Part shown: positions 16,536 through 17,750 of the stretch, piece by piece
Numbering within the stretch: the first letter of the stretch is position 1
Layout: each line of letters opens with the position of its first letter
DNA from: Bifidobacterium breve
GTDB lineage: Bacteria; Actinomycetota; Actinomycetes; Nanopelagicales; Nanopelagicaceae
Length of the DNA: 56,495 bases
NCBI GenBank assembly: GCA_945876865.1
Contig: CAMCPZ010000005.1
Location: forward strand, 1 to 56,495
Direction of reading: 5' to 3'
Made by a program: the position numbers and the translations under genes
The notes under the pieces: model-generated
The model's input: the letters and a program-made list of their open reading frames with translations, nothing else
Told to the model about the DNA's origin: nothing
Databases searched by the model: none

Positions 16536-17750
16536 TTACTTAAGTGCGACCTTTAGATTTTCATCAATCGCAGCCAAGAAGTCTTGTGTATTTAACCACG
16601 GACTATCTTTTGAAATAAGGATTGCAAGATCCTTTGTCATCTTTCCGGATTCAACTGTTTGGATACAAACTTTCTCAAGTGTTGCTGCAAACTCAGCTAG
16701 TTTAGAATTGTTATCCAACTTCGCGCGGTGTGTTAGACCTTGAGTCCAAGCAAAGATTGATGCGATTGGATTCGTAGATGTTGCTTTTCCGGCTTGGTGA
16801 TCGCGATAGTGGCGAGTGACAGTTCCGTGTGCAGCTTCTGATTCAACAGTCTTTCCATCTGGAGTCATAAGAACTGAAGTCATTAAGCCAAGTGAGCCAT
16901 AACCTTGTGCGACGGTATCTGATTGCACATCTCCGTCCTAGTTTTTACAAGCCCAAACATAACCACCCTCCCAGCGAAGAGAGGTTGCAACCATGTCATC
17001 GATTAGACGGTGCTCGTAGGTAATTCCTGCGGCATCAAACTTCGCTTTGAATTCACTTTCAAATATTTCAGCAAAGATATCTTTAAATCGGCCATCGTAT
17101 GCTTTCAAGATTGTGTTCTTTGTCGAGAGAAATACTGGATAGTTACGAATCAAACCGTAGTTCATTGATGCACGCGCAAAGTCGCGGATCGAATCATCGA
17201 GGTTATACATACCCATTGCAACACCAGCTGAAGGGAAATCAAAGATGTTGAACTCCATTGGCTTTGAACCATCTTTTGGTGTGAAAGTCATTGTTAGAGT
17301 TCCAGCGCCTGGAACCTTGAAATCTGTCGCCTTGTATTGATCACCAAATGCGTGACGGCCAATAACAATTGGCTTAGTCCAATTAGGAACCAACCTTGGA
17401 ACGTTCTTCATGATGATTGGCTCGCGGAAAATTACGCCACCCAAAATATTACGGATTGTTCCATTCGGAGACTTCCACATCTTCTTTAGACCGAATTCTT
17501 CAACCCGAGCTTCATCTGGAGTAATCGTTGCGCACTTGATACCAACGCCATGCTTCTTGATTGCATTAGCAGAATCAATTGTTACCTGATCGTTTGTTGC
17601 ATCTCGGTGTTCAATTCCAAGATCGTAATATTCAAGATTTACATCCAAATAAGGCAAGATTAATTTTTCTTTAATAAATGACCAGATAATGCGAGTCATC
17701 TCATCGCCATCAAGCTCTACTACTGTTCCTTCAACTTTTATCTTCGACAT
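16536..17750 (-). pseudogene. icd: NADP+-dependent isocitrate dehydrogenase interrupted by one in-frame TAG
   Basis: Converts isocitrate to 2-oxoglutarate and CO2 in the TCA cycle. The frame is full length (405 codons including stop, normal for the homodimeric eukaryotic-like type) and starts [20 protein letters not shown], but codon 271 (16938-16940) is TAG. The residues around it read [20 protein letters not shown]; the family has Tyr there (KNYDGDVQSD), and the Asp residues that follow bind the metal. Up- and downstream parts are otherwise perfectly conserved ([27 protein letters not shown]). One base change from a Tyr codon explains it. Either a sequencing error, a very recent mutation, or read-through. 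A restart at GTG 16928 would give only the C-terminal third. Convergent with msmK and downstream of mdh. Confidence 0.9.

Follow-up and report, generated by a model that had tools for sequence, protein, structure and literature searches.

The known enzymes closest to the product of the icd gene studied here are the NADP-dependent isocitrate dehydrogenases of the NF006156 / TIGR00127 type, with solved relatives 3us8 and 4hcx. When read through, the icd gene of the window (the whole analysed stretch of 56,495 nucleotides, contig C5 of source genome G000, with a G+C content of 0.449) keeps the sequence CKNYDGDVQSD of this type; unlike the described members, it carries a TAG at codon 271. This codon occupies positions 16940-16938 on the minus strand (CTA on the plus strand), in the context AAA AAC TAG GAC GGA, and breaks the reading frame within the motif KNYDGDVQSD. 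The frame extends over 404 codons from an ATG at 17750 to a TAA at 16536, with the TAG as its only interior stop and with no frameshifts. The original prediction of a TAG at codon 271 in an otherwise open icd frame of that length was borne out both by re-reading the sequence and by the match to NCBIfam family NF006156, for which the read-through product scored 770.9 bits over residues 1-403. The curated cut-off of this family (335 bits) is thus exceeded with the stop read through, although the gene is not a single uninterrupted frame owing to TAG 271. The features of the locus are the following:

16536..17750, minus strand: icd, NADP-dependent isocitrate dehydrogenase, 404 codons with one interruption (read-through match to NF006156; synteny with genome G009)
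16938..16940, minus strand: TAG in place of Tyr (Tyr in the other aligned rows, TAT in the two nearest relatives)
16941..17750, minus strand: part of icd ahead of the stop, 270 codons (517.7 bits alone to NF006156)
16536..16928, minus strand: putative open frame past the stop, 130 codons, first codon GTG (220.4 bits alone, below the cut-off of 335)
17784..18740, minus strand: malate dehydrogenase gene, intact, upstream of icd (profile match and comparison with relatives)

Comparison with relatives showed Tyr at codon 271 in all 109 other aligned icd rows (TAC in 78 and TAT in 31), a count that joins 29 rows from a whole-genome search to 80 from genome_contigs, contains at least two pairs (L018/L061 and L022/L062) that look like duplicates of one genome each, and leans towards Tyr in the genome_contigs rows because the Tyr motif KNYDGDVQ was one of the six patterns of that scan. 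The residue had been predicted to be a conserved Tyr, and the icd gene of the window is alone among the 110 rows in having a stop at this position. The two nearest relatives (L002 and L003, 93.6% nucleotide identity) both have TAT, and the difference therefore corresponds to a single transversion, T to G in the coding strand and A to C in the plus strand, in agreement with the one-base change that had been proposed; the comparison with closely related genomes suggested at that time gave this Tyr codon in both of them. Out of 60 genomes searched, including the source genome, 46 had an icd match, and an interior stop was present only in that of the window. A class-wide search matched 212 of 394 genomes, and among the best 150 rows the window's own was again the only one with a stop. 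In addition, Asp252, Asp274 and Asp278, which presumably correspond to the Asp residues at the metal site in human IDH1, are Asp in all 29 whole-genome relatives. Two pattern matches were obtained in viral contigs, and neither encodes an icd relative.

The source genome is a draft bin of 83 contigs totalling 1,248,425 bases, with a completeness of 83.19% and a contamination of 3.49%, and these properties are consistent with the reading that we consider probable, namely that the TAG is an isolated single-base error of the consensus, or a minority base that entered it, in a normal single-copy icd gene. We infer that the consensus base differs from the base of the population itself. In the population, codon 271 would then most likely specify Tyr in the usual way, and a full-length enzyme would be made. 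This reading is favoured because none of the other 110-row alignment members has a stop at this position and because icd is free of decay. We regard as possible, without favouring it, that the TAG is a real and very recent nonsense mutation of the sampled strain, with loss of the enzyme. The product would in that case be a polypeptide of 270 residues lacking Asp274, Asp278 and all residues downstream, and the cell would either live on outside glutamate or 2-oxoglutarate or be leaving the population. The lack of a replacement enzyme in the bin fits such a loss: as had been recommended, a second icd was searched for in the 83.19%-complete bin, which yielded a single icd match, and no monomeric isocitrate dehydrogenase was found in it. 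The other match to the Iso_dh profile, on contig C44, was rejected as a second icd, since it corresponds to 3-isopropylmalate dehydrogenase (leuB; 572.2 bits, cut-off 393) and is located between the phosphoglycerate dehydrogenase and branched-chain aminotransferase genes. On the other hand, an icd match was present in each of the 108 family genomes with a completeness of 90% or more and a contamination of 5% or less, which speaks against a real mutation, as does the fact that no interior stops occur in the two citrate synthase and three aconitase-family matches of the bin, two of the latter being cut by contig ends. These two cut matches (G000:C7:1-1104, covering profile positions 94-463, and G000:C80:3-398, covering 1-139) are perhaps parts of one gene split between contigs. 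Aligned with G009, the window forms a single block (56,545 columns, 93.5% identity), and the gene convergent with icd encodes an ABC-transporter ATPase.

The age of the stop was addressed through the changes that arose in the window's own lineage, counted by hand at icd codons that are shared by G009, G024 and G015 but different in the window. Ahead of codon 271 there were 10 synonymous changes and no amino-acid changes, and past it 10 synonymous and two amino-acid changes (P349S and S356A). The second of these falls in a variable column, with Ala in 7 of 29 relatives, and the first in a conserved one, with Pro in 28 of 29. An unconstrained tail is expected to gain more amino-acid than synonymous changes. 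Constraint has thus been kept past the stop, and therefore either the stop arose long after the lineage of the window had separated from G009 and G024, or it is an artefact, or it is read through. The absence of relaxation counts against a loss of the enzyme, and an established pseudogene was rejected on account of the single stop, the lack of frameshifts and the maintained constraint. The earlier statement that icd has no sign of decay elsewhere holds on both sides of the stop.

We next consider how often such stops occur in the rest of the genome. A total of 704,624 bases of the sister genome G009 supplied frames of 100 codons or more, which were matched against 453,679 bases of the source genome, excluding stops within the first 30 residues and matches below 75% identity. 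Matches were found for 246 of 666 G009 frames, corresponding to 81,228 codons, and three of them were flagged. Only icd had a stop in the gene body. The second case was a one-base difference in the length of a G-run, which we place ahead of the actual gene, the G009 frame probably being over-long; in the third, a frame of 354 residues was stopped at residue 348. When the comparison was reversed, one of the 246 source frames met a stop in G009, at residue 42, read as a matter of start choice. A comparison restricted to the window also flagged a frame at 11015, the stop of which precedes an ATG at 11072. Random single-base changes in 19 window frames produced a stop in 4.19% of cases, and with 1e-4 errors per base 1.02 nonsense codons are expected in the 81,228 codons. 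Since just one was observed, these data favour a consensus error.

The changes of both lineages were also polarised with G015 (194 genes, 61,782 codons), resulting in 346 amino-acid and 3376 synonymous changes for the source genome and 468 and 3455, respectively, for G009. These lineage counts gave no indication of a general error-proneness of the source assembly. The assembly thus looks clean at the base level, which supports a real nonsense mutation and somewhat weakens the case for a consensus error. Amino-acid-changing A>C and T>G substitutions, the class to which the icd change belongs, were more frequent in the source lineage (40 of 262) than in that of G009 (33 of 366; p 0.02, Fisher test); synonymous changes showed no such excess (225 of 3333 vs 257 of 3418). 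This excess points weakly to an error, and as an after-the-fact comparison it carries little weight.

An icd match was identified in 271 of 296 genomes of the family, and among the best 150 of these 271 rows two carried one TAG each, that of the window and that of genome G301, which fits the class of 108 genomes mentioned above. The idea of a TAG at the identical codon in another genome was discarded, since the G301 stop is located at codon 40 (L292, G301:C56:13227-14435, minus strand). In the eight loci compared, this codon specifies Glu in seven and Asp in one, and the nearest compared relative of G301 (93.1%) has GAG. The G301 TAG is independent of the one in the window. The other eight frames compared in the 11-kb neighbourhood of the G301 icd gene were open, and this second isolated stop in icd lends some support to a real nonsense mutation in the window. 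A survey of 21 G301 stretches (218,380 bases, 77 places, 27,178 codons) flagged one further stop, at residue 47, perhaps due to start choice, in a match of 60% identity. The control gene glmS showed no interior stop in the best 150 of 264 rows from the 296 genomes. Two stops placed at random would both land in icd, and not in glmS, with a probability of about 0.16 by codons surveyed, and the difference between two stops in icd and none in glmS, among the best-scoring rows listed, is not significant. The second TAG is mildly unexpected under random errors and to that extent counts against them. It is quite unlikely, in our view, that real young amber mutations recur in icd of small-genome actinobacteria, as at codon 271 here and codon 40 in G301, with the loss being temporarily tolerated or masked by amber read-through.

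A real amber codon that is read through or suppressed, with production of the full-length enzyme, would account for the constraint kept past the stop, but we judge it very improbable. The genome encodes release factor RF1 (482.8 bits, cut-off 400) and likewise RF2, and TAG serves as terminator in 5 of the 54 window frames, one of which would otherwise stay open for another 414 codons. The argument that had been raised against global recoding therefore holds, TAG being in ordinary use as a terminator. Among the TAG-terminated genes named in support of it, purE and acpS were recovered, whereas ugd is absent from the five frames found. Of the 54 frames, the one at 868-2103 ends in TAA. A suppressor tRNA with a CUA anticodon was looked for, as had been proposed, and none was present among the 31 tRNAs found in the 83%-complete bin, nor in G009, where 30 of the 33 tRNA loci were read, nor among six tRNAs in the 21 G301 stretches. 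Because the bin is incomplete, a small opening is left for an undetected suppressor tRNA. Furthermore, no TAG other than that of icd occurs within gene bodies in the 246 gene pairs, and the RNA around the stop has an ordinary predicted fold (z -0.36). With 38.4 bits, one tRNA (L146:781-855, G000:C15:18783-18854) has the lowest score in the bin; it reads as tRNA-Gly, but its anticodon, ACC, is unusual for this amino acid, and no comparably low-scoring match is listed for G009. Two tRNA-Arg(TCT) genes of equal score lie at the ends of short contigs (G000:C50:5-78 and G000:C59:72-145; L031 and L032); the pair is perhaps an assembly duplicate, with one match of that score listed for G009. As for a split icd, in which two separately translated pieces would assemble into a working enzyme, the GTG-started frame past the stop would provide a second piece, but the break falls inside a conserved-motif segment, KNYDGDVQSD, and no relative examined is split at codon 271, which makes this arrangement extremely unlikely.

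Altogether, the TAG is most likely not a real feature of the organism, the chance of an ordinary nonsense mutation instead being real but well below even. Of the four options originally listed, suppression finds no support in the sequences searched and a long-standing loss is contradicted by the constraint, while a consensus error, to which we lean, and a fresh strain mutation stand. If the TAG were real, this would be a small-genome bacterium with a very recent loss of a central step of the TCA cycle, or with amber reading at one site. The independent TAG in the icd gene of G301 is the single reason for a second look. The main implication is one of caution, as a lone nonsense codon in a clean gene of a draft genome is what ordinary base errors lead one to expect. 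With respect to known systems, the locus shares with amber suppression and stop-codon reassignment an in-frame TAG in a conserved gene, and differs from them in that RF1 is present, TAG terminates ordinarily and no suppressor tRNA was found in the 83%-complete bin. On the other hand, it resembles, with no feature to distinguish it, the single nonsense differences of draft genomes, whether errors or fresh pseudogenes: one stop, a gene otherwise sound, and intact neighbours.
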